From assembly GCA_017473945.1 (NCBI GenBank), contig JAFUIW010000044.1:1-33599 (forward strand): a stretch of 33,599 nucleotides of DNA, in the 5' to 3' direction. Of this stretch, positions 21,184 to 31,985 are shown piece by piece. This DNA comes from Methanobrevibacter sp. (lineage in GTDB: Archaea > Methanobacteriota > Methanobacteria > Methanobacteriales > Methanobacteriaceae). The translations under genes were made by a program, and so were the position numbers. The notes beneath the pieces are model-generated. The model was not told the origin of the DNA. It saw only the letters and a list, made by a program, of their open reading frames with translations, and did no database searches. Every line of letters starts with the position of its first letter. Position 1 is the stretch's first letter.

Positions 21184-23406
21184 TTATTCACTTTTAACAA
21201 TTTTTAAACCAACATCATTGGCTAGGTTTTGAAGGTTGCTTAAAGTCCGAATATTTAGTTTTTTAACCTTGTTGTTTAGTTTTTTCCAGGATACCAGGTT
21301 AGGATTAATTTTTTGCTCATTATCTCTTCTGTGACCATATTTCCAACCTAAATTGACACAATCCATATACCAAGACTCATGTTCTCTTCGGGCAAGATAG
21401 TCCACTTCTTTTGCAGATAGAGAAATCTTTTCACCAGGCTCGTCTAGGGAAACCAATTTATAACCCAAATCTCCCAATGTTTTAACTAAGCGTTCTGTTT
21501 GCTTATAATTTGAGAATCTGATATCTTTAGATAATTCTTCAAATTTCTTCCCTTTAACTTTAATACTGTAATATTTATGTTTTTCAATAGTGAGCAATTT
21601 TAATTTGGAAATAACAACTTTCAATCCTATTGAATCTAAAATATCAGGAATGTTTGCTACAGCATTCCTATCTTTTTGTTTTTCCTCATCAGGCAACTTC
21701 TCCCATTCAACTAAAGAAGGTTGAATCTTATTTTCCTCATCACGCACTTCCCCATAAGTCCATCCGTTTTGAATTTTCTCATTGCACCATCGTTCATGTT
21801 CAAATACAGCCATATTTTCAATTTCATCCTCCGTGAATTCGTATTCTTCACGGACATCATTTTTCAAGGCTATTTCGCAACCGATCATACTGAGTTTAGC
21901 CGGAATTGATTTGGCCTGGCGAACATTGGACAATTTATATCCTGCAGGCAAATCCTCATAATTTTCATCAACTACAACATTACCGTTTTTCTTCTCAGAT
22001 TCTATATAATTGTTGTGTATCTGAATAGCCAATTTCTCAATATTGCTCATTATCACATAAGGAGCATGAACTTCTTTTCTTTCTATCTCCTTGATAACAT
22101 CATCAAGTTCAATCTTGGTTACCACATTGAACTTTTCAAACAATACGTCCACATAAAGCACATCATTTAAAAATGAAACCTTATCTTTTGAGAATCCGAA
22201 TCCGAGGGAGCCTGAATTGAGTATATATTGAATATCCAATTCATCATCAGTTACTGTAATAATTGAGTCATTAACATGATTCTTTTGTTTATCCTTTACA
22301 CCCAGTGGCCTGCGGTTCCACTCCTGAAGCTCATCACACAATATAAGCATAAACGCTAAAGGAGAATCTTGTGGATGGAGTTGTTCCAGGTCGAAAGGTT
22401 CCTCCTGAAGAGTGTTTCTATAATAATTATGCAGTAAAATTGCACTTGCACTGTCCACTATTGGATAAAAGAAGAAGTCTTGATCTTTTTCACCGATATT
22501 TTGAATCAGAGAACCATATGAATTAAGTACCAGAATGGATGAGAAAAATCCATGGTCTATGAATCCCTTATTTCCCATATACTCTACAAAACCCTCTAAA
22601 TGATTAATCAGCATATCTATATCAATATCCAAATCTGTGGATATTTTATGGGCCATGATATTGGTAGGTTTGAATAGGTCTAAAAATTTGGATTCAGGAT
22701 AAACATCCCGGTATTTATCTGCAAATTCAGGTTTAATCTTGCGGATTGAATTAAACTCATCGAAATCCTTAAAATCGATGGCAGTATTCACATCATAGGT
22801 AGGTGAAATTGATTTTACACCTTCTTTAATGAAATTTTTCAATTGCTTTCCTATAATTTCAACAGGATATCCGATGTCATGGAAAAGTGAAGCTATACCC
22901 CAACGATATAGGAATTCCTCATTGGACACTTCAATATCTCCAGACACGCCTTCCAGTCGATAATACTTATGATATGGACTTTCTTCAATATAATCTTTGA
23001 ATATGTCCCTATAATTTGAGTTTTGAGAGTAAATTGCCAAACCTAAAAGAAATACATTGACGGAATGGATAAAATGATCTCTTTGTTTTTCAATTAAATC
23101 CCCAGTATTGCTTTCATATCTCTTCATGATTTTAACCAATTCCAAAAGGGAATTAGGTTCATTTTTAATCAAGGACTCATCAAATTCACTATTGCCCTTA
23201 TCTGATTTATTTTCAGATGTGATTTGATAAATCATGAAAAAAGTTTCATATACCTCATAAGCATTAAATGTATTCTCATTATCTAAAAAATTATCAATGA
23301 CTGCTTTTAAAAGATCCTTATAATTATGGCCGTTATGGATATCATCATATAACTCCAAATCATTGAAAAAGTCATTGATATAATTTTTAAAATTATCTTC
23401 GCTCAT
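21184..23406 (-). CDS. HD-domain protein with two C-terminal RyR domains
   Basis: A 740-residue cytosolic protein. Residues about 105-330 carry an HD-type phosphohydrolase-like domain, with QRDHFIHSVNVFLLG (H111, H114) and SLFHDIGYP (H176, D177). Two RyR (pfam02026-type) domains follow at about 521-600 and 661-740; each shows EHExW, GWxYG, a basic-acidic loop, P-x-L-V-x-W-x-x-L and a final helix ending GLK. RyR domains are known from ryanodine receptors and from prokaryotic proteins in nucleotide-signalling and conflict systems, where they are predicted ligand sensors. The residues between (about 330-520) are unrecognised. GGGG precedes the ATG, and a run of TTAA repeats at 23422-23444 supplies a promoter of its own. 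It could hydrolyse or sense a nucleotide signal. Confidence 0.8.
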   Translation of the reverse strand: MSEDNFKNYINDFFNDLELYDDIHNGHNYKDLLKAVIDNFLDNENTFNAYEVYETFFMIYQITSENKSDKGNSEFDESLIKNEPNSLLELVKIMKRYESNTGDLIEKQRDHFIHSVNVFLLGLAIYSQNSNYRDIFKDYIEESPYHKYYRLEGVSGDIEVSNEEFLYRWGIASLFHDIGYPVEIIGKQLKNFIKEGVKSISPTYDVNTAIDFKDFDEFNSIRKIKPEFADKYRDVYPESKFLDLFKPTNIMAHKISTDLDIDIDMLINHLEGFVEYMGNKGFIDHGFFSSILVLNSYGSLIQNIGEKDQDFFFYPIVDSASAILLHNYYRNTLQEEPFDLEQLHPQDSPLAFMLILCDELQEWNRRPLGVKDKQKNHVNDSIITVTDDELDIQYILNSGSLGFGFSKDKVSFLNDVLYVDVLFEKFNVVTKIELDDVIKEIERKEVHAPYVIMSNIEKLAIQIHNNYIESEKKNGNVVVDENYEDLPAGYKLSNVRQAKSIPAKLSMIGCEIALKNDVREEYEFTEDEIENMAVFEHERWCNEKIQNGWTYGEVRDEENKIQPSLVEWEKLPDEEKQKDRNAVANIPDILDSIGLKVVISKLKLLTIEKHKYYSIKVKGKKFEELSKDIRFSNYKQTERLVKTLGDLGYKLVSLDEPGEKISLSAKEVDYLARREHESWYMDCVNLGWKYGHRRDNEQKINPNLVSWKKLNNKVKKLNIRTLSNLQNLANDVGLKIVKSE

Positions 23407-23500: not shown

Positions 23501-24259
23501 TTATGAGGAATATTTCCTTAAACCTCCATAAAATTTTTCTACTTGTCGAACATTGAAATTAGATGTATCAACATGAAAACGCATAGTCTCTATTTCAAAA
23601 AAATCATAACTTTTGAATTCGAGTTTTCCAGGTTTCTTATAAATTTTTTCAACAGCAATTAAGTATAAATCTATTATCAAGTCCCCTATTTCCTCAGTTA
23701 CATTTCCAACACATTCCTCAAACCAATCGGCAAGATGAGTTACAACAAAAGCCGGAATGGAAGTTGGCCTTGATGCGTCTACAATCTCCCTAATCAAATC
23801 ATGATTCTTGCTTTCAAAATACTCCTCGAAAAGATTGTACAATCTCAACATGTCCTCACCCATCAATGTTAAGAGTTCATCTGGCATGTCCAATGCCTCA
23901 ATATCCTCGCTGAACGGACCAAGATATATCAAATCATAAAAAAACAGATAAATAAATGGATTTAATTTATTTCCATATATAAATGCTTCACTGAACATTG
24001 CATATATCTGCATCCATTCATCCTTTGAAAAAATATGATACTCAAAAGCCCTGAAATCCTCGAAATCCAATTCAAAATCAAGCACATAGGGGGAGTTGAA
24101 ATTAAACTTTAAGAAAATATTCAATACATGATCAGAATATCCAATATCTTCAGCTGAAGATATATAAGCCAAGAAAGTTCTGGCCAGTTCTTTGAAAAAC
24201 TTTCTTTTGGCCTTTTTAAAATCCCTTGATTTGTAATTGAACATTCCATCAATAATCAT
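23501..24259 (-). CDS. Conserved-looking protein of unknown function in the kinase-Hsp70 operon
   Basis: A 252-residue soluble, mainly helical protein that I do not recognise. It is rich in Phe, Tyr, Asp and Glu, with the basic start YKSRDFKKAKRKFFKELART, a central acidic helical part, and no signal peptide, membrane span or obvious catalytic triad. HLADWFEECVGNVTEEIGDL (about 175-195) is the most patterned segment. GGGTGAT lies before the ATG, only four bases behind the stop of the phosphatase gene, so both are surely co-transcribed. By position it is the last gene of the phospho-signalling operon, perhaps an adaptor or target. Confidence 0.75.
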   Translation of the reverse strand: MIIDGMFNYKSRDFKKAKRKFFKELARTFLAYISSAEDIGYSDHVLNIFLKFNFNSPYVLDFELDFEDFRAFEYHIFSKDEWMQIYAMFSEAFIYGNKLNPFIYLFFYDLIYLGPFSEDIEALDMPDELLTLMGEDMLRLYNLFEEYFESKNHDLIREIVDASRPTSIPAFVVTHLADWFEECVGNVTEEIGDLIIDLYLIAVEKIYKKPGKLEFKSYDFFEIETMRFHVDTSNFNVRQVEKFYGGLRKYSS

Positions 24260-24263
24260 ATAA

Positions 24264-25034
24264 TCACCCGATAATGAATTTCAATTGTTTTTGAACATCT
24301 TCAATGCATGTAATCTCCATTGACAAATCCATGTCAAGATAAGTCTTGACTTTGGTGTTGAAGCTTGATGACATAATAATCTGCTTTGAAAACACTTTAT
24401 AGGATTCAACTGGACAATGCCCAACAATCATAGCCTTCAAATCCATTATTTCCAGAAACCTATCAACATCGCTTTGGATATAGTCTGTGACATTATTGTA
24501 CCTGTTCCATAGAAAATCATATAAAATTGGACTTGAATAGTCGCTTGCAAATATGGTGTTAAATCCGTCAACTGATTTGACCTTTGTTGATGGACCTGAA
24601 TGAGATATGAACAATCCGTTTTTTGTTTTTGCAAAATAAGGCATTGACTTGAAAAATCTGATGTATCGAGTCAGGTGAGGTTCTATAAAACCTTTTTTGT
24701 ATGATATTACGTTTTTGAATCCCAAAAGCAATGGCTGATTGTTTTTATATATTTCAGTGCTGGTGATTTGAGCCCATTCATGGTTTCCCAAAAGAGTGTG
24801 GAAATTCGAAAATTCCTTTGATTTTGCAATGGCATCATCCAAAATTTCTACAGACTGATCTTTTTTCACGTCAAGGCCATGAATCATATCTCCTGTAAAA
24901 ATAATGTGGAAATCTTCATCTGATTCATCCCATAAGTTCAGATAATGATTATAATCATCAAAATTGCCGTGCAAATCTGTCACTACAATTAAACGACCAT
25001 GGCCAGGCAATTCAATCAATTTATCATTGGTCAT
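24264..25034 (-). CDS. PPP-type metallophosphatase
   Basis: A 256-residue calcineurin-fold phosphatase with the full metal-site series in order: TDLHGN (Asp-x-His), FTGDMIHG, LLGNHEW, then ISHSGPS and IVGHCPV. The order and GNHE form place it in the PPP branch with protein Ser/Thr phosphatases and ApaH-like enzymes. The ATG at 25032-25034 is preferred over an in-frame GTG at 25043 because AGGTG sits six bases before it. It lies in one operon with a Ser/Thr kinase and an FHA protein, so dephosphorylation of phospho-Ser/Thr proteins is the most likely job. Hydrolysis of a dinucleotide such as Ap4A cannot be excluded. Confidence 0.85.
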   Translation of the reverse strand: MTNDKLIELPGHGRLIVVTDLHGNFDDYNHYLNLWDESDEDFHIIFTGDMIHGLDVKKDQSVEILDDAIAKSKEFSNFHTLLGNHEWAQITSTEIYKNNQPLLLGFKNVISYKKGFIEPHLTRYIRFFKSMPYFAKTKNGLFISHSGPSTKVKSVDGFNTIFASDYSSPILYDFLWNRYNNVTDYIQSDVDRFLEIMDLKAMIVGHCPVESYKVFSKQIIMSSSFNTKVKTYLDMDLSMEITCIEDVQKQLKFIIG

Positions 25035-25043
25035 AATCAACAC

Positions 25044-25166
25044 CTATTTTTTCAATTTTTTTAGTGCTTTAATAACTTCATCCAAATCAGTATGGAAGTT
25101 TAAATCTAAAAATCCATCTGAATTATTTTTATTAAGTACCACAGTTGCTTTTATTTGGTCTTTCAT
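25044..25166 (-). CDS. Small 40-residue protein between kinase and phosphatase genes
   Basis: An uninterrupted 40-codon frame, MKDQIKATVVLNKNNSDGFL at the start and a Lys-rich end (IKALKKLKK), with AAGGGT before the ATG. It follows the kinase-Hsp70 gene by 47 bases, and its stop codon lies 9 bases before the phosphatase start, within that gene's ribosome site, as expected for coupled genes. The mix of a short beta stretch and a basic helix looks protein-like. No family recognised. If real it may be a regulator or peptide substrate of the system; otherwise it is a leader that spaces the two genes. Confidence 0.55.
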   Translation of the reverse strand: MKDQIKATVVLNKNNSDGFLDLNFHTDLDEVIKALKKLKK

Positions 25167-25213
25167 GAAATTACCCTTATTATTTTATTTATCAAACAGC
25201 ATATTTAAATGAG

Positions 25214-28200
25214 TTAAAGTTTTTTATTTATGTGCCTTTCATCAAGCTCATATAGCAGTTCCACAATATTGAACAGCTCGTCATAATCATACATGTTAAG
25301 GCAATCCTGTGCCTTTCCAATTAGCTCATCTGCAAGTTTTTCATTGTTCGTATAAATTCCTTCAAGTTTTAAATTGAAATAGCACTCCTCAAGAACACTA
25401 TCCCTATTCAATGCAACATATCTTGCAACCAAATCACTATGATATCGCTTCAGCTGCTTTAAGTCATTATTTGCCAATATTTCATCGATTTCTTCGATTT
25501 CAAATAGACCCTTGGCCTTTGCAATTTCCATTTTTCTTAAAACATTTTCCCTTAATGTGACAAATTCCAAATCCTCTTTTTTATACTCCACCAAAGTTTC
25601 CAAGTAATCAATGTAAATTAAAGTCTGATTATATGCAATAGGGTATCGTTTGGACATCTCAACTAACCGGTCAATGTAGTCAAGGATTTCCTGATTGAAT
25701 TCATATGAATAATCCTTTAAAAACTCAATGTCATTCATTATTCTGACATGACGATTCATCAAGTCCCTTAAAATGATGCCATCATCATTCATGCCAAATG
25801 ACCTGTTAAGGTATGGAATATGGATGAGTTCATTTTCAACTATGTTCGGTGATTTAACGTCAATGCCAACCGTCAAGGCTTTATTATAAATGTTGATGGT
25901 GAATGACTCAAAAGGCAAACTAACCCTAAATTGACCATCAATTGTTAATGGAACCACCATTGAATTATCATTGCTTTTGAATTCTATTTCATATCCTAAA
26001 AACGAGCATTTGGAATCCATGCAAAATACTTTTCCTGAAATAATTCCATTGGCAGAATTCAGAACAACTGAAAATGGCTCTTCAGAGTGCATTGAGTGCG
26101 GTTTTTCAAGGCTTCCCGCATAGAGGGCTGCACCTCTTGACACGACAGTCAATGGATTCAGGCCTGATTCAATCTCAATATTGAATTCCTCGGCAATGCT
26201 TTCATGAACAATCGGACTGAGAGATGAACCGCCAACAAGAATAATTTTGTTTATGTCATCGTCACTAAGTGAGTTTTCATCTAACAGGTCTCTTGAGATT
26301 TTAAATGTGTAGTTAATTAATGGAAGCATGATTTCCTTGAGTGTTTCTTGAGTTAAACTGTACTTAAAATCATAACCATCAAAAAGATTAGGAGCACATA
26401 TAGATGACTCTGTTGAAATAGTTAAATCTTTCTTGATTTCTTCTGCAAGATTTTTCAGTCTTGCGAAAATCTTGTCATATTTTTTATTTTCCCGTCTGAA
26501 ATCATCAAGATTAAGGTCATAAGCAATTTTCGGCTTGAACAAATCATTGACAATCTTCCAGTCAATGGCGTTTCCTCCAAGATTTTCCAAACCATCAGTT
26601 GCAAGCTTCTCAATCTCTCCGTTGTTATCTCTAATCAATGTGACATTGAAAGTTCCACCACCCAGGTCATAAATCATCCAAACGCCATTATCTGCTTTAA
26701 GATTATAGGCCAGGCTTACGGCAATAGGCTCCAACAGAAGGCTGTGTGATCTGAATCCTGCAAGTTCAGCAGCATCATTGACAGCCCTTGTCTTTATGGG
26801 ATTTGAATTGGCAGGAACACAAATAACAACATGTTCCATATTCACTCCAGTTTCATCATATACGGAAACTCTCAAGTCCTTTAAAACCTCTGCAGACAGC
26901 TCTTCCGGAAACATCACGCGGGAAGAATTTTCAAACTTGAACGGAACTGAAAATCCCATGTTCTGTTTGAATTCAGATACTGCATTACGGCTGTTTTCAA
27001 AAATCGCATTCCGTGCGACTGCACCCACTTTAACATTATCAGAATCATCAATCAAAACTGCTGACGGTGTAAAATCTTCCCCTGTCCGGTGATTTTTTAT
27101 GACTGTAGGATTTCCATCATTAAAGTAAGAAACAACAGAGTCTGTTGTTCCCAAATCGATTGCATAGTCAATGGTGTCCTTTTTAATCTCATATGTGTTT
27201 TTGAAATGCATTTTCATGTTCTGTTTCCACAGTGACATTTTATATGCATATTTCTGTCGGATTTGTGGGTTTACAACAACAGCAAATTCCATCAGATTGG
27301 CTCCAGAGGAGAGCTTATTCAAGTTGACCAATCTTACTGCCTCAACAGCAATCTCATCTACTGAGTAGGTTTTAAGCGTTGGAAGAATATCTTCATACAA
27401 TGCATTAATTTCGCTGCTTGACTTCATCAGATTCTCAAGCAACACTACAGATTTGAACAGGCTTCCATGACTCTGAAGGTCAATGAATATTTTCCACAGT
27501 TCAATATAATGCTGATACTTATTTTTAAGCGATGGATTGTAAGCTATAGCTTCATTTAAAAAGTTACAGGCAAGCTTGTAATTCTGTCCTTTGAGATTTA
27601 CAGTGAAAGCCTTTGATATCAGCTTCAAATCGGGATTTTTAGACTTCCATATTCTCAGCGTTTCGGAATAGCACTTACGAACATCATAATCTGCCAAAAC
27701 TTCCCCTTCCAATATCTCAATAGCTTCATCCAGTTTATTTTCACGCTTAGCAAGTTCAAAAGCTTCCCTAATCGAATCATTTATTATGTACTCAGCATAT
27801 TCGTCATGATAGTCATCACTGATGCTTGAACCGTATGAAATTTGTGAAGATGTAAACTCGTCAATGGCTTTTTCAACATCACCTAAAAGGCCATATGCAT
27901 CGCCATATCGCTTGTCCGGATTGGTGTCAAGACATTTCATTACAATCTCATCAACTTTGCCAGAGACATGTTTATTATAATAGCTGGGTGCTTTCAGCTC
28001 CTTTTTCCATGGTTTTAAATCAATCAGCTCTTCATTAGAGTATTCATCAACATCATAGGGATAACGATTGGTCAAAAGCTGATAGAAAATAACACCAACG
28101 GCATAGACATCACTTCTGGTCGATACTGATTTGGTGAATAGTTCAGGAGCCATGTACGGCCTTGTTCCGGCAATGTCAATGTCCGATATGCCGGTTGTTA

Positions 28201-28741
28201 CTTCCTTTGCAAAACCGAAATCAGATATCTTGATTAGAATATTTCCACAGGCGTTAAAACTGAGCAAAACATTGTTTGGCTTTAAATCTCTATGTATTAT
28301 AGGAGGGTTGGCAGAATGCAAAGTGTTTAGTCCATTGAGTATCTGGCGAATCAAATCCAGACTCCTGGACATTGGCATGAACAGGTTATTTTCAATGAAT
28401 GAATTCAAATAACGCTCCAGATCTCCTCCTGAAACGTATTCCATTACAAAATAAGCATGGTTTTGGCCGTCTTCAAAATCAGATATCTCGGCAGCGTCAT
28501 AAATAGCTATGATATTTTCATTTCTGAGCTGACTGGCCAATGTGACCTCACGAAAAACTTCTTTTTTATTAGTGGAAGCACTTAAGGGTTCCTTGATGAT
28601 TTTCATTGCCATCAATGTATCTAGATAGTTATGATTTACCAGATAAACCTTTGCAAATGATCCTTCACCCAAAAATTTTTTAACTTCAAATTTTCCATTA
28701 AAAAATTCTTCTATCAGGCGTTTAACTTCATCAAAGCCCAC
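25214..28741 (-). CDS. Ser/Thr protein kinase fused to an Hsp70 ATPase domain
   Basis: An 1175-residue cytosolic fusion. Residues about 15-290 form a Hanks-type kinase with every catalytic part: GEGSFAKV (25-32), Lys47, HRDLKPNN (150-157), DFG (174-176) and APE (198-200). Residues 320-515 are helical and repeat-like. From about 525 to 880 comes an Hsp70-type ATPase: DLGTT (529-533), the phosphate-2 loop DLGGGTF (692-698), the adenosine loop VGGSS (837-841) and RGAALYAG; the remaining 295 residues hold a short beta part and helices, not a standard DnaK tail. No membrane span or DnaJ partner is visible. It lies between an FHA protein gene (30 bases) and a phosphatase gene. A kinase that senses or is gated by protein folding is an attractive reading. 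GTG/ATG choice: ATG at 28741. Confidence 0.92.
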   Translation of the reverse strand: MGFDEVKRLIEEFFNGKFEVKKFLGEGSFAKVYLVNHNYLDTLMAMKIIKEPLSASTNKKEVFREVTLASQLRNENIIAIYDAAEISDFEDGQNHAYFVMEYVSGGDLERYLNSFIENNLFMPMSRSLDLIRQILNGLNTLHSANPPIIHRDLKPNNVLLSFNACGNILIKISDFGFAKEVTTGISDIDIAGTRPYMAPELFTKSVSTRSDVYAVGVIFYQLLTNRYPYDVDEYSNEELIDLKPWKKELKAPSYYNKHVSGKVDEIVMKCLDTNPDKRYGDAYGLLGDVEKAIDEFTSSQISYGSSISDDYHDEYAEYIINDSIREAFELAKRENKLDEAIEILEGEVLADYDVRKCYSETLRIWKSKNPDLKLISKAFTVNLKGQNYKLACNFLNEAIAYNPSLKNKYQHYIELWKIFIDLQSHGSLFKSVVLLENLMKSSSEINALYEDILPTLKTYSVDEIAVEAVRLVNLNKLSSGANLMEFAVVVNPQIRQKYAYKMSLWKQNMKMHFKNTYEIKKDTIDYAIDLGTTDSVVSYFNDGNPTVIKNHRTGEDFTPSAVLIDDSDNVKVGAVARNAIFENSRNAVSEFKQNMGFSVPFKFENSSRVMFPEELSAEVLKDLRVSVYDETGVNMEHVVICVPANSNPIKTRAVNDAAELAGFRSHSLLLEPIAVSLAYNLKADNGVWMIYDLGGGTFNVTLIRDNNGEIEKLATDGLENLGGNAIDWKIVNDLFKPKIAYDLNLDDFRRENKKYDKIFARLKNLAEEIKKDLTISTESSICAPNLFDGYDFKYSLTQETLKEIMLPLINYTFKISRDLLDENSLSDDDINKIILVGGSSLSPIVHESIAEEFNIEIESGLNPLTVVSRGAALYAGSLEKPHSMHSEEPFSVVLNSANGIISGKVFCMDSKCSFLGYEIEFKSNDNSMVVPLTIDGQFRVSLPFESFTINIYNKALTVGIDVKSPNIVENELIHIPYLNRSFGMNDDGIILRDLMNRHVRIMNDIEFLKDYSYEFNQEILDYIDRLVEMSKRYPIAYNQTLIYIDYLETLVEYKKEDLEFVTLRENVLRKMEIAKAKGLFEIEEIDEILANNDLKQLKRYHSDLVARYVALNRDSVLEECYFNLKLEGIYTNNEKLADELIGKAQDCLNMYDYDELFNIVELLYELDERHINKKL

Positions 28742-28771
28742 TTAAACCACCTAATTAGATTTGAAATCTAA

Positions 28772-29563
28772 TTAAAATGTACAATAAATTACTGCTCCGC
28801 CATTTCCCCTGGACAACTTTAAAAATGAATTAGGTTTTAATTTGGTAGCTTTGCCCTTTTGAACTTCAATATCTCCTATGTAAGTTCCGTTTGAGCTAGC
28901 CTCATCAATTATATACCAACCGTCATTTTTATAAAACAATTTCAAATGAGGTTTTGACACGTTGGAAACTGTATCATAACTGTTGTCCAAAAGAATGGAA
29001 AATGATGCCAGATCTGCCTGGCTGAAATTTGCCTTACGACCAATTAGGACTGTTTCATCCCGGCGAACTTTAAATGTTTTTCCTTTATCCACACCATTGA
29101 ATATTGTGAGTACGCAGTTGTCATCCTCATGGTATTTTTGATTAGACTTATACAAATCAAAGAATGTGAAGAGCTCATCGGAAAGGAAGTTAATTTCCAA
29201 AAATAAGTCTTCAAATGCATCTTCCTTGATAACGTAAGCCTTAACTGTTCTTTTACCAATCTTATTGGGCACTTCCTTTTTTATTTCAACTTCACAAACG
29301 AGATTGGCGTTCATGAGCTGTTTCATGTGTTGGCCCAACATCTGTGGAGTTATTTCAATATTGTAATTTTTTAAAAGAATGGAGTTGATTTCACGTGAAT
29401 ATAAAGGGTCTGTTGACTGTGACTGATTGTATTTCTGATTGTCCCTTAAGATTTCAAGTATTGAAAATCTCACTTTATTATTTACTGCTGCTAGTTTCTG
29501 AGAAATTAAGTCAGAACTTTCTGAATCTATAATTACTGTTTTATCGATATCTGAATCGAACAT
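28772..29563 (-). CDS. Winged-helix and FHA domain protein
   Basis: A 263-residue protein. Residues about 25-115 form a winged-helix DNA-binding domain (VRFSILEILRDN, SREINSILLKNY, TPQMLGQHMKQLMNANLV, then a wing). Residues about 150-263 are an FHA domain with the phosphothreonine-binding set GR (175-176), SxxH (203-206) and NG (225-226). The N-terminus has DKTVII, a Thr context like those phosphorylated in other kinase-FHA systems. Joined with the next gene, a Ser/Thr kinase, it offers a direct route from phosphorylation to transcription: the phosphorylated kinase or N-terminus would be bound by the FHA domain and alter DNA binding. It might autoregulate the operon. Confidence 0.88.
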   Translation of the reverse strand: MFDSDIDKTVIIDSESSDLISQKLAAVNNKVRFSILEILRDNQKYNQSQSTDPLYSREINSILLKNYNIEITPQMLGQHMKQLMNANLVCEVEIKKEVPNKIGKRTVKAYVIKEDAFEDLFLEINFLSDELFTFFDLYKSNQKYHEDDNCVLTIFNGVDKGKTFKVRRDETVLIGRKANFSQADLASFSILLDNSYDTVSNVSKPHLKLFYKNDGWYIIDEASSNGTYIGDIEVQKGKATKLKPNSFLKLSRGNGGAVIYCTF

Positions 29564-29598
29564 GGTGAAATCTCCTATGTTAAATTATAATTGTTAAT

Positions 29599-30399
29599 CT
29601 AAATTGCACTGCTTAAAACATCATGATAAGCTTTCAAGTCTTTTTCACGTAAATTCAGCTTATCCATAAGCTCAACAATTAATGCATCAAGCAATACCAA
29701 AGCTGAAACCTCAAATGCAGTTCCCATCAAAATCAATTCCAATGGACGGTATATATTACTTATACCATATATTTCATGAGGCAATTCGTACATCTGCGCC
29801 ATTATCTTTTTATCAGCCATATCTATATTTTTTCTAGGAAGCTCTTCGAGTTGACGTTTTATATCCTCATCCCTTTCAAAATTCATGATAGTCTTTGGTA
29901 AAAATTCAATGAAGCGTTCTATGTCTGAATCTTCAAGGTTTACAAGCATCTGCGGCAGTGAATCAATTACAATTCTTGCATCAGACTTCTGGGCGAGGTC
30001 TGATTCTGTATTGCCGCAAACGGTTAAGAACTTGACATTGTCGATTTTGGAGTCCTCTACAATCTGAGTAATTGAATTGGATTTACCTGATTTGGATATG
30101 ATTATGATAATATCTCCATCCTGGACAGGCGGAGCTATTGTTTCATTGAATACATATACGTAAAATCCCAAATGCATCAGTCTCATTGCAAATGACTTAG
30201 CAACGAAACCTGATCTGCCTGCACCTGCGAGGAAAATTGTGGTTTTTCTCTCTGTGGCAGTTCTCTTATTTGAAGCTGTCAAAATTATGTCCCTAAACTT
30301 GCAGATAGCTTCTTCCTGATTTTCTAAAACTGATTTTGTTCTATTAAGATTTTTTAGGATTTCATCCAAAGATAAATCCATATATTTTAACTCAGACAT
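29599..30399 (-). CDS. SIS-domain protein, 6-phospho-3-hexuloisomerase-like with insertion
   Basis: A 266-residue SIS (sugar isomerase) protein. The fold is shown by FLAGAGRSGFVAKSFAMRLMHLG (about 53-75), DIIIIISKSGKSNSIT (about 95-110) and the closing helix GTAFEVSALVLLDALIVELM, which is diagnostic for 6-phospho-3-hexuloisomerase (HxlB). Normal HxlB has about 180-200 residues; here some 60-70 acidic and helical residues (about 165-228) are inserted before the last part. HxlB acts in the ribulose monophosphate pathway that makes pentoses in many archaea, but no hxlA is adjacent. AGGTTATT precedes the ATG. It sits between RtcB and FHA genes, so a regulatory or repair-linked role is possible. 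Confidence 0.82.
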   Translation of the reverse strand: MSELKYMDLSLDEILKNLNRTKSVLENQEEAICKFRDIILTASNKRTATERKTTIFLAGAGRSGFVAKSFAMRLMHLGFYVYVFNETIAPPVQDGDIIIIISKSGKSNSITQIVEDSKIDNVKFLTVCGNTESDLAQKSDARIVIDSLPQMLVNLEDSDIERFIEFLPKTIMNFERDEDIKRQLEELPRKNIDMADKKIMAQMYELPHEIYGISNIYRPLELILMGTAFEVSALVLLDALIVELMDKLNLREKDLKAYHDVLSSAI

Positions 30400-30411
30400 G
30401 TCAATAACCTT

Positions 30412-31518
30412 TTAAGCTTTGAAATTATAAACTGGTTTTACAATATCTATTATTTTAACTGTATCTTCGACATTATTTAAAATATTATCTATTGGTTTAT
30501 ATGCCATCGGAGATTCATCCAATGTTTTTTTGGAAACTGATGTTGAATATATTCCTTCCATTGCCCTTTCGAAATCATCAAATGACAATTCTTCCTTGGC
30601 TTTGGAACGGCTGAAAAGACGTCCTGCACCATGAGGGGCAGAATAGTTCCAGTCACTGTTTCCCTTTCCTTTACAGATTATTGACCCATCGCGCATGTTT
30701 ATCGGAATTATTAATGTTTCGTTTTTGTTTGCTGAAACAGCACCTTTTCTTAAAATCATCCTGTCCATATCAATGTAGTTGTGGATTGTAGTGAATGATT
30801 TGGTGAAGTCCATTCCGTATTCGCTTAAAATGGTCTCGGCTATGGCCTTACGGTTCAGTGATGCAAAGTCCTGCATTATTTTCATGTCATGTATGTAATC
30901 CTCAAATATCCTTCCTTCACAGTAAATCAGGTCCTTGTCCGATGCCATGTTGTGGAATCTCTTGAACTCCTTCAACGCTGCATTCTGATAGTATTCACAA
31001 ACATCAGCACCGATTCTGCGACTTCCTGAATGGATTACCATTATCAAATCACCATCTTTGGTTTGATTGATTTCAATGAAATGGTTTCCACCTCCAAGAG
31101 TGCCCAGTGCGAAATTGCCTTCGCTTCCAGCCTCTAAATTGAAATAACATTTGAGTTCTGTCAAGTCAAAATTATTCATGAAATGATGAGGTATTGCCCT
31201 TTTCTTGTAGCCGTGAGGCACCTTATGATGAATTATATGGTCAAGGCGTTCAAAATCAATCACATCGACATCAAGATAAACCACCTCCATTCCACAGCCT
31301 ATATCAGATCCTACCAGATTTGGAACAACCCTGTCTGTAATTGTCATTGTTGTTCCGATTGTACAGCCCCTTCCAGCATGGATGTCTGGCATCATGCGTA
31401 TTTTCTGGCCTTCAGCGATGGGCTGGTTTAGAAATTGGATTACCTGTGAAATGCTGACCGGATCAACATCATCTGAAAATATTTTGGCTGTTGCATATCT
31501 CCCATTTAATTCAAACAT
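30412..31518 (-). CDS. rtcB: RtcB-family RNA ligase, short form
   Basis: A 368-residue RtcB-family protein. Visible are DIHAGRGCTIG, the metal Cys in LVGSDIGCGM, GGGNHFIE, HSGSRRIG and SAPHGAGRLFSRSKAKEE, which holds the His that takes the GMP adduct. RtcB joins 2',3'-cyclic phosphate to 5'-hydroxyl RNA ends using GTP. The canonical archaeal tRNA-splicing RtcB has about 480 residues; this one is more than 100 shorter, like bacterial accessory RtcB forms used for RNA repair. GAGGTGAT precedes the ATG, the strongest ribosome site in the region, and a TATA-like run lies at about 31541-31575. It is the first gene of the string that leads through SIS and FHA genes to the kinase, with gaps of 12-35 bases. 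Confidence 0.88.
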   Translation of the reverse strand: MFELNGRYATAKIFSDDVDPVSISQVIQFLNQPIAEGQKIRMMPDIHAGRGCTIGTTMTITDRVVPNLVGSDIGCGMEVVYLDVDVIDFERLDHIIHHKVPHGYKKRAIPHHFMNNFDLTELKCYFNLEAGSEGNFALGTLGGGNHFIEINQTKDGDLIMVIHSGSRRIGADVCEYYQNAALKEFKRFHNMASDKDLIYCEGRIFEDYIHDMKIMQDFASLNRKAIAETILSEYGMDFTKSFTTIHNYIDMDRMILRKGAVSANKNETLIIPINMRDGSIICKGKGNSDWNYSAPHGAGRLFSRSKAKEELSFDDFERAMEGIYSTSVSKKTLDESPMAYKPIDNILNNVEDTVKIIDIVKPVYNFKA

Positions 31519-31628
31519 TTTATCACCTCACGAAATCGGTTATTTAAATTTATAATTTATTTTATATTTAAATCGTATAAATGAATTGCTTTACATAAGT
31601 TAAATATTTTTAACAAAAACTTTAGGTC

Positions 31629-31985
31629 ATGAAACAACTAATCAATAGCTTCAAACATGCAACTGAAGGAATAATCACCACAATTTGCGTTGAGCAAAAC
31701 GTGAAAATACAAGTTCTGGCAATGATTTGCACTGTCATTTTGGGATTAGTATTAAAATTATCACAAATCGAGTGGATTATCTGTATCTTACTGTTTGGAG
31801 GCGTAATCAGTGCCGAGATGTTCAACACATCTCTGGAAAAGACGCTTGACTACATCAACACCGAATACGATGAAAAAATCAAGTTCATCAAGGATGCATC
31901 GGCAGGGGCAGTTCTGGTTTTGGCAAACACATCCACAATAATCGGACTGATTATTTTCATCCCAAAAATCATATCCTCAATCTAG
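31629..31985 (+). CDS. Diacylglycerol/undecaprenol kinase family protein (DgkA-like)
   Basis: A 118-residue three-span membrane protein with the prokaryotic DgkA signature AEMFNTSLEKTLD (about 64-76) and KDASAGAVLVLA (about 90-100), where the Glu and Asn bind metal and ATP. It phosphorylates a membrane lipid alcohol such as diacylglycerol or a polyprenol; in archaea the lipid is probably an isoprenoid alcohol. The ribosome site (TAGG close to the ATG) is weak. It is divergent from rtcB, and its last 17 bases overlap the converging phosphatase gene. Confidence 0.88.
   Translation: MKQLINSFKHATEGIITTICVEQNVKIQVLAMICTVILGLVLKLSQIEWIICILLFGGVISAEMFNTSLEKTLDYINTEYDEKIKFIKDASAGAVLVLANTSTIIGLIIFIPKIISSI

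Follow-up and report, generated by a model that had tools for sequence, protein, structure and literature searches.

Related systems and the locus

In Anabaena, the autoregulated ribbon-helix-helix repressor TrcR governs rtcB, a silent trn operon of 26 tRNAs and other translation genes, and the trn array is induced by translation-targeting antibiotics (PMC10272220). In enterobacteria, RtcR, the regulator of the RtcR-rtcBA system, is activated by tRNA fragments (PMC7790460). Here we report on an operon of Methanobrevibacter sp. (GCA_017473945.1, contig JAFUIW010000044.1; an assembly of 141 contigs, 93% complete), lying in a stretch of 33,599 nt referred to below as the window. It encodes a second RtcB together with a Ser/Thr kinase fused to an Hsp70-like ATPase, a winged-helix-FHA protein (wHFHA), a PPP phosphatase and a protein combining an HD phosphohydrolase-like domain with RyR domains (HD-RyR). 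We consider it likely that this operon both controls a response to translation damage, probably tRNA or RNA damage, and supplies its repair functions.

The resemblance to the TrcR regulon lies in a single operator that precedes rtcB, the gene of the candidate regulator and an array of tRNA genes, as is seen across relatives, whereas the genome of the window itself has it ahead of rtcB, an L40e-like gene and RlaP only. The locus differs in its candidate regulator, a winged-helix-FHA protein accompanied by kinase-Hsp70 and PPP, in its operator, its spare elongation factors and its archaeal hosts. With RtcR-rtcBA it would share an RtcB operon with a dedicated regulator and a tie to tRNA damage, inducibility being a feature of the enterobacterial system; unlike it, the operon holds phospho-signalling genes in place of RtcA and a CARF-type RtcR, a Pfam scan of all operon genes having found neither an RtcA cyclase nor a CARF activator. 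Since the defining regulators are absent, the locus is not a member of the TrcR or RtcR-rtcBA systems. It would work like TrcR, and like RtcR-rtcBA where repair is concerned, as a functional parallel only, with regulators unrelated to TrcR.

The eukaryotic unfolded protein response relies on IRE1/PERK, BiP, RtcB and PP1. The same parts list (kinase, Hsp70, RtcB, PPP phosphatase) is met here, without any IRE1-type RNase or luminal sensor being seen, and no descent is claimed. The initial annotation knew of no described system with this make-up. The combination was not found in the literature searched, but several of its parts have precedents, the regulon of rtcB and a tRNA operon having been described in 2023 (PMC10272220). 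A Ser/Thr kinase carrying an HSP70-like domain at its C-terminal end, as here, was reported from Pirellula in 2005 (PMC1262709); it is a single planctomycete protein without gene context, whereas the present fusion belongs to a conserved archaeal operon. Archaeal tRNA clusters were described in 2019; those in M. ruminantium M1, RUG344 and RUG648 are arrays that we find behind operator sites, and the description proposed for them neither a regulator nor a promoter element nor any link to an rtcB/kinase operon (PMC6333295). Chaperone/kinase/phosphatase conflict systems of other make-up have also been described (PMC7159879). In the literature searched we did not find the operator, the connection between tRNA clusters and kinase-Hsp70, the spare elongation factors or the phospho-signalling operon, earlier mention of parts being possible.

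The operon, its control element and the genes behind it

The initial annotation had described seven minus-strand genes with gaps of 47 nt or less. All seven ORFs were found in place, with measured gaps of 12, 35, 30, 47, 0 and 4 nt, and profile scans returned the domains that had been assigned (RtcB, SIS, FHA, Pkinase with HSP70, Metallophos). What had been missed is the regulon and one further gene: the unit runs 94 nt beyond U252, the last of the seven, into HD-RyR (21184-23406), which lies downstream in nearly all relatives.

Conservation was followed in 139 genomes of the family Methanobacteriaceae, 36 of which have wHFHA homologues. Around these, the order RtcB-SIS-wHFHA-kinase/Hsp70-p40-PPP-(U252)-HDRyR(-HDRyR) recurs with small gaps. 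It is kept in about 15 Methanobrevibacter genomes; comparison of neighbourhoods, the check that had been put forward for the seven genes, found the order from RtcB to PPP kept in many other members of the genus. The second, short RtcB is present in 16 genomes and belongs to the rtcB/kinase operon in 15 of them, and the fused kinase-Hsp70 occurs together with RyR in 21 of 22 genomes. The least conserved member is U252, found in the window and at two other loci (L043, L070); in L053/L159 it forms one protein with HD-RyR. Because kinase and Hsp70 are mostly separate adjoining genes in two genera (g9, g12), their fusion probably arose as a later step. Some copies of the operon are decaying (L045, L046, L054, L057), and therefore the system is gained and lost over time. 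A scan for the fusion in 84,980 species returned only Methanobrevibacter metagenome-assembled genomes (MAGs), with patterns so narrow (HRDLK stretch, N-terminal motif) that absence elsewhere is not shown.

Comparison of the regions upstream of rtcB yielded a control element composed of a 16-bp inverted repeat, TAAAG-N6-[CA]TTTA, six bases, a TTAWATA box, about 46 nt and the ATG. In the window this operator-promoter (31565..31593, minus strand) consists of the inverted repeat TAAAGCAATTCATTTA and the TATA box TTTAAATA, 46 nt ahead of rtcB, and is conserved upstream of rtcB in relatives. The window holds 3 matches with at most 1 mismatch, against 0.01 expected by chance. One is the palindrome of the rtcB operator read on the other strand (31578..31606, plus strand, 1 mismatch), which faces a divergent DgkA-like gene; another, also with 1 mismatch, is a possible internal operator ahead of p40 and PPP (25202..25230, minus strand). 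The DgkA-like gene itself (31629-31985, plus strand) shares the rtcB operator, and exact divergent sites on the DgkA side are present in G038, G086, G074 and G019. Wherever wHFHA leads, the element lies upstream of wHFHA (L064, L066, L079), and in genus g9 the PPP gene stands alone behind a site of its own.

Genome-wide, sites were counted as exact matches only, so that regulon sizes are minimum estimates, and some single matches, including those in genomes lacking wHFHA, will be due to chance. Within the genus, the 25 genomes with wHFHA carry a mean of 4.08 sites and the 42 without it 0.17 (p=7.5×10−11); two or more sites were found in 15/25 and 0/42 genomes, respectively, and a reversed-pattern control gave near zero. 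The difference was found again in the other genera (3.36 versus 0.26 sites per genome, p=6.1×10−8) and over all 139 family genomes (p=5.8×10−18), and genomes with the rtcB operon have a mean of 6.9 sites. This co-occurrence supports an action of wHFHA at the TAAAG-N6-[CA]TTTA sites. Archaeal activators usually sit just upstream of the TATA box, and as this is where the element lies, activation rather than repression is suggested.

The genes behind the sites were then listed. Three exact sites are present in the genome of the window, ahead of the rtcB operon, of a gene for an L40e-like ribosomal protein (contig C88) and of an operon on contig C141, in which a gene for an Ig-like secreted protein is followed by RlaP, an RNA-repair nucleotidyltransferase of the polymerase-beta type. 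RlaP stands behind sites in relatives too, as confirmed by PF10127 in L192, L216 and L043 and indicated by sequence likeness in L053 and L202. A second, divergent EF-2 is encoded in G019, G028, G031, G038, G069, G074, G081 and G086, and all of these except G069 and G074 have sites upstream of it; among 23 genomes checked it is confined to those bearing the system. In G038 this EF-2 is 66% identical to the canonical one and a second EF-1A adjoins it, while in L204 an EF-1A lies behind a site. Other genes in this position in relatives encode ClpP (G038, G057), NAD kinase and DgkA-like proteins divergent from rtcB. A protein of 660-690 aa of the phrog_1735 family recurs behind sites (L188, L196, L197, L199, L209, L211, L280, L298:7388-9367); 510 of 50,697 phage records match this family, and none was found in the viral-contig scan.

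In relatives, single or tandem sites also precede tRNA arrays of 10-24 genes, which start 200-470 nt after them. Total tRNA numbers reach 77 in G038, 66 in G069, 52 in both G074 and G057, 45 in G095 and 43 in G086; the range is 24-34 in ten genomes that lack the kinase-Hsp70 operon. All 20 amino acids are covered by the 34 array tRNAs of G069, whose identity to the canonical tRNAs of matching isotype is only 58-78%. An origin of the arrays in known phages was rejected, only single tRNA matches being found. Identical promoter pairs of tRNA arrays were seen across two genera (G072:C110:8843-9138 and G031:C50:7361-7656), which suggests a recent horizontal transfer of the array between them.

The stretch from the promoter to the tRNA array contains short ORFs, most of which have a GTGAT ribosome site. 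Ahead of Leu/Ser/Thr arrays (L181, L186, L191, L205, L206) the leader has 37 aa in all five genomes and is made up of 39-56% Leu+Ser+Thr, against a background of 21%; the leaders of other arrays (L184, L189, L268, L274, L278, L213) use 18 of the 20 amino acids, with few Leu/Thr. U-runs follow soon past the stop in the Leu/Ser/Thr class and in one of the two other classes. As leader composition mirrors the following array and U-runs come after the stop, attenuation by uncharged tRNA is suggested, which we regard as a lead. Another conserved short ORF, MGLEDxExDFxxMK, follows the operator and precedes the second EF-2 gene in both genera (L182, L199, L271, L276, L277).

Proteins of the operon

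RtcB enzymes join RNA with 3′-phosphate or 2′,3′-cyclic phosphate ends to 5′-OH ends. The operon RtcB (30412..31518, minus strand, as are all genes of the operon) is a short second copy of 368 aa (PF01139, 2.6×10−66), 33% identical to the canonical RtcB of the genome upon alignment. Its ligase motifs are kept, including the metal- and GMP-binding residues (Asp/Cys, NH, HSGSR His, HN, HGAGR His). It is followed by a HxlB-like SIS-domain protein (29599..30399; SIS 2.2×10−16).

The kinase-Hsp70 protein (25214..28741) has 1175 aa, with matches to Pkinase (1.2×10−53) and HSP70 (1.1×10−61). The kinase residues K47, E65, D152, N157 and D174 (VAIK Lys, HRDxKxxN, DFG) are invariant in 17 orthologues. 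In the Hsp70 half, the equivalents of DnaK K70, D194, T199 and E171 are kept, the D201 position being N/H/S/T, and the predicted model of the ATPase fold aligns with the DnaK ATPase domain at a TM score of 0.91. Past the ATPase, the model shows a beta domain (890-983) and then helices (991-1166), in Hsp70 order; a Pfam scan gave no profile match to a peptide-binding domain at this C-terminal end. A sister locus is present in the same genome (L042; contig C30:24000-43900), with a TIR-adhesin protein, a ClpB-like AAA+ protein, separate kinase and Hsp70, TPR, PPP, a J-like membrane protein (FWFWP) and a GrpE-like protein, the last two labels coming from reading of the sequence. Part of this sister locus has a bacterial counterpart on L102, a contig from a MAG listed under Pseudomonadota, where a related kinase adjoins two FWFWP + repeat proteins.

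The candidate regulator, wHFHA (28772..29563; FHA 4.9×10−9), co-occurs with the sites as described above and carries a conserved KTVIID at residues 7-12. In its FHA site, G175, H206 and G226 are invariant, and R176 and N225 are kept in at least 90% of the sequences. The small protein p40 (25044..25166) has 40 aa, 16 homologues and a conserved T-V-V-L-N motif. The pattern T-[VIAMLE]-[VIL]-[VIL]-[DN] is common to both proteins: it was found in 15/15 clustered p40 and 22/52 wHFHA, in the N-terminal region of the latter in all but one case, and in 7/412 other proteins. FHA domains that read pT-x-x-I/L exist, and for this reason the motif Thr of wHFHA and p40, which are Thr9 and Thr8 respectively with the start Met counted, appear to be the likeliest kinase targets and FHA ligands.

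The PPP/calcineurin-like phosphatase (24264..25034; PF00149 (Metallophos) 6.8×10−13) probably starts at the ATG at 25034, rather than at the possible GTG at 25043. Its motifs read TDLHG, GDMIHG and GNHE, to be compared with GDxHG, GDxVDRG and GNHE; no PDB match was obtained at E 0.01. The accessory protein U252 (23501..24259) has 252 aa, and neither it nor p40 matched any family in profile scans.

HD-RyR (21184..23406) has 740 aa, with an HD phosphohydrolase-like domain followed by two RyR domains (5.9×10−28). Alignment found H111, H114, H176-D177, H285 and D358 of the HD domain invariant, the predicted model being weak in the HD core (mean pLDDT 62). Cyclic ADP-ribose is bound and cleaved by the RyR residues H75, W78, H100 and D117 of phage RyDEP (PMC13232231). 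Of these four, RyR repeat 1 keeps three, the H, W and D being the invariant H537, W540 and D579, while the H100 position is Gln; in repeat 2, H676 and W679 are invariant and an Asn is found at the D117 position. The likeness to RyDEP is thus in the conserved ligand residues, and the difference in the tandem RyR placed behind an HD domain, host-encoded and within an operon. Proteins in which TIR is fused to HD-RyR or RyR were noted at L159:6437-9649, L162:2843-6133 and L164:1154-2698, and cassettes of the form TIR-TIR-~250 aa-HD-RyR at three loci of Methanobacteriaceae (L160, L161, L165). A distant HD-RyR-like protein (27% identity) on a viral contig (L171) was the sole match in the viral-contig scan.

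A proposed response and its alternatives

In the response that we propose, the Hsp70-like half would most likely sense damage or stalled protein synthesis, and HD-RyR would perhaps read nucleotide signals. The kinase would phosphorylate wHFHA at the conserved Thr near its N-terminus and p40 at its similar Thr; the FHA domain would read these phosphothreonines, leading wHFHA to assemble on DNA, with p40 tuning or competing. As comparative genomics suggests, wHFHA would act six bases upstream of the TATA box, at the sites that precede the rtcB operon, RlaP and the L40e-like gene and, in relatives, tRNA arrays, EF-2 and wHFHA. From what is known of its family, RtcB would reseal RNA; spare tRNAs and factors would sustain translation, and PPP would undo the phosphorylation and end the response. 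The initial annotation had modelled a response to stress or damage, linking misfolded protein or broken RNA to transcription. Its RNA and translation side is supported by the operator before RNA-repair and translation genes and by the tRNA arrays in relatives; its misfolding part is unproven. A more complete scheme would be a phosphorylation-controlled emergency programme of gut methanogens, in which kinase-Hsp70 senses failing synthesis, the FHA activator induces RtcB, RlaP, a full divergent second tRNA set and second elongation factors, and leaders make each array respond when its own charged tRNAs run short; we consider it slightly less likely than not.

Several observations weigh against this proposal. 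The large regulon is seen in relatives and not in the window's own genome, an incomplete assembly in which we found no tRNA array and no second EF-2, but 34 tRNAs and one EF-2. The site statistics ignore phylogeny and include by construction one site per genome at the operon, and some genomes with wHFHA (G041, G098, G075) have zero or one site. The DNA binder could instead be another regulator tied to wHFHA. On the signalling side, the Ser of the FHA SxxH varies among wHFHA orthologues, and the Thr motifs of wHFHA and p40 were noticed post hoc.

A first alternative is immunity based on NAD or ADP-ribose, in which ADPR-type signals made by TIR proteins are bound or cleaved by HD-RyR, and RNA cleaved in the course of abortive infection is repaired or replaced through RtcB and the tRNAs. 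TIR is present in 25 of 33 genomes with RyR and in 16 of 106 without (p=1.8×10−10), TIR is fused to HD-RyR within the rtcB/kinase operon of G086, and elsewhere in G114 and G095, and the H/W/D used by RyDEP on cyclic ADPR are kept in RyR repeat 1; the patchy distribution of the operon and its decayed copies fit as well. However, a Pfam scan found no TIR in the operon of the window, the regulon is composed of translation and repair genes without killing effectors, and the RyDEP H100 is replaced, as noted above. PADLOC matched only generic kinase families in the operon (PD-T4-6, mad6), and assignment to a known defence system was dropped on this ground. We regard this alternative as rather unlikely. 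NAD signalling may be an input of the translation-damage response rather than its rival: such an input is possible given that RyR and TIR co-occur and fuse in relatives, once inside the rtcB/kinase operon, and that the sister locus of the same genome has TIR and ClpB-like genes.

Two further explanations seem to us quite improbable. The operon might serve proteostasis, with the Hsp70 half sensing misfolded protein in a heat or misfolding operon of which RNA repair is a side branch. This would agree with the fusion of the kinase to an Hsp70-like protein whose model has a beta domain and a helical end past the ATPase, with ClpP behind sites in two genomes, and with the ClpB-like, J-like and GrpE-like proteins of the sister locus. 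Yet the Hsp70 has no counterpart of DnaK D201 and no sequence recognisable as a peptide-binding domain, none of the three sites of the genome precedes a chaperone gene, and sites elsewhere are mostly ahead of tRNA arrays, RlaP, EF-2 and rtcB. The repeat might otherwise be a strong-promoter feature or a mobile-element mark riding with acquired tRNA arrays, its link to wHFHA reflecting shared ancestry or hitch-hiking; we give this little credit as well, even though array tRNAs are divergent, arrays and sites move between genera, as the promoter pairs of G072 and G031 illustrate, a phage-family protein recurs behind sites, and tRNA clusters were earlier tied to mobile elements (PMC6333295). It is opposed by the sites ahead of chromosomal L40e-like, RlaP, EF-2, wHFHA and PPP genes, by the absence of sites from wHFHA-negative genomes in spite of equal ordinary tRNA genes, and by the independent occurrence of the wHFHA-site pattern in two genera.

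Bacteria have dedicated RNA-damage regulons (RtcR, TrcR), and in the literature searched none was found for archaea. The role of archaeal tRNA gene clusters had been open, and the response to translation damage proposed here would offer a setting for them. It would connect RNA repair and a reserve of tRNAs with a Hanks-type kinase that has an Hsp70 domain, with a phospho-reading transcription factor and with a PPP phosphatase, and its defined DNA motif makes this link directly testable, also in M. ruminantium M1, a rumen strain in culture. The HD-RyR proteins that hosts encode and that travel with TIR proteins would likewise gain a first functional setting.

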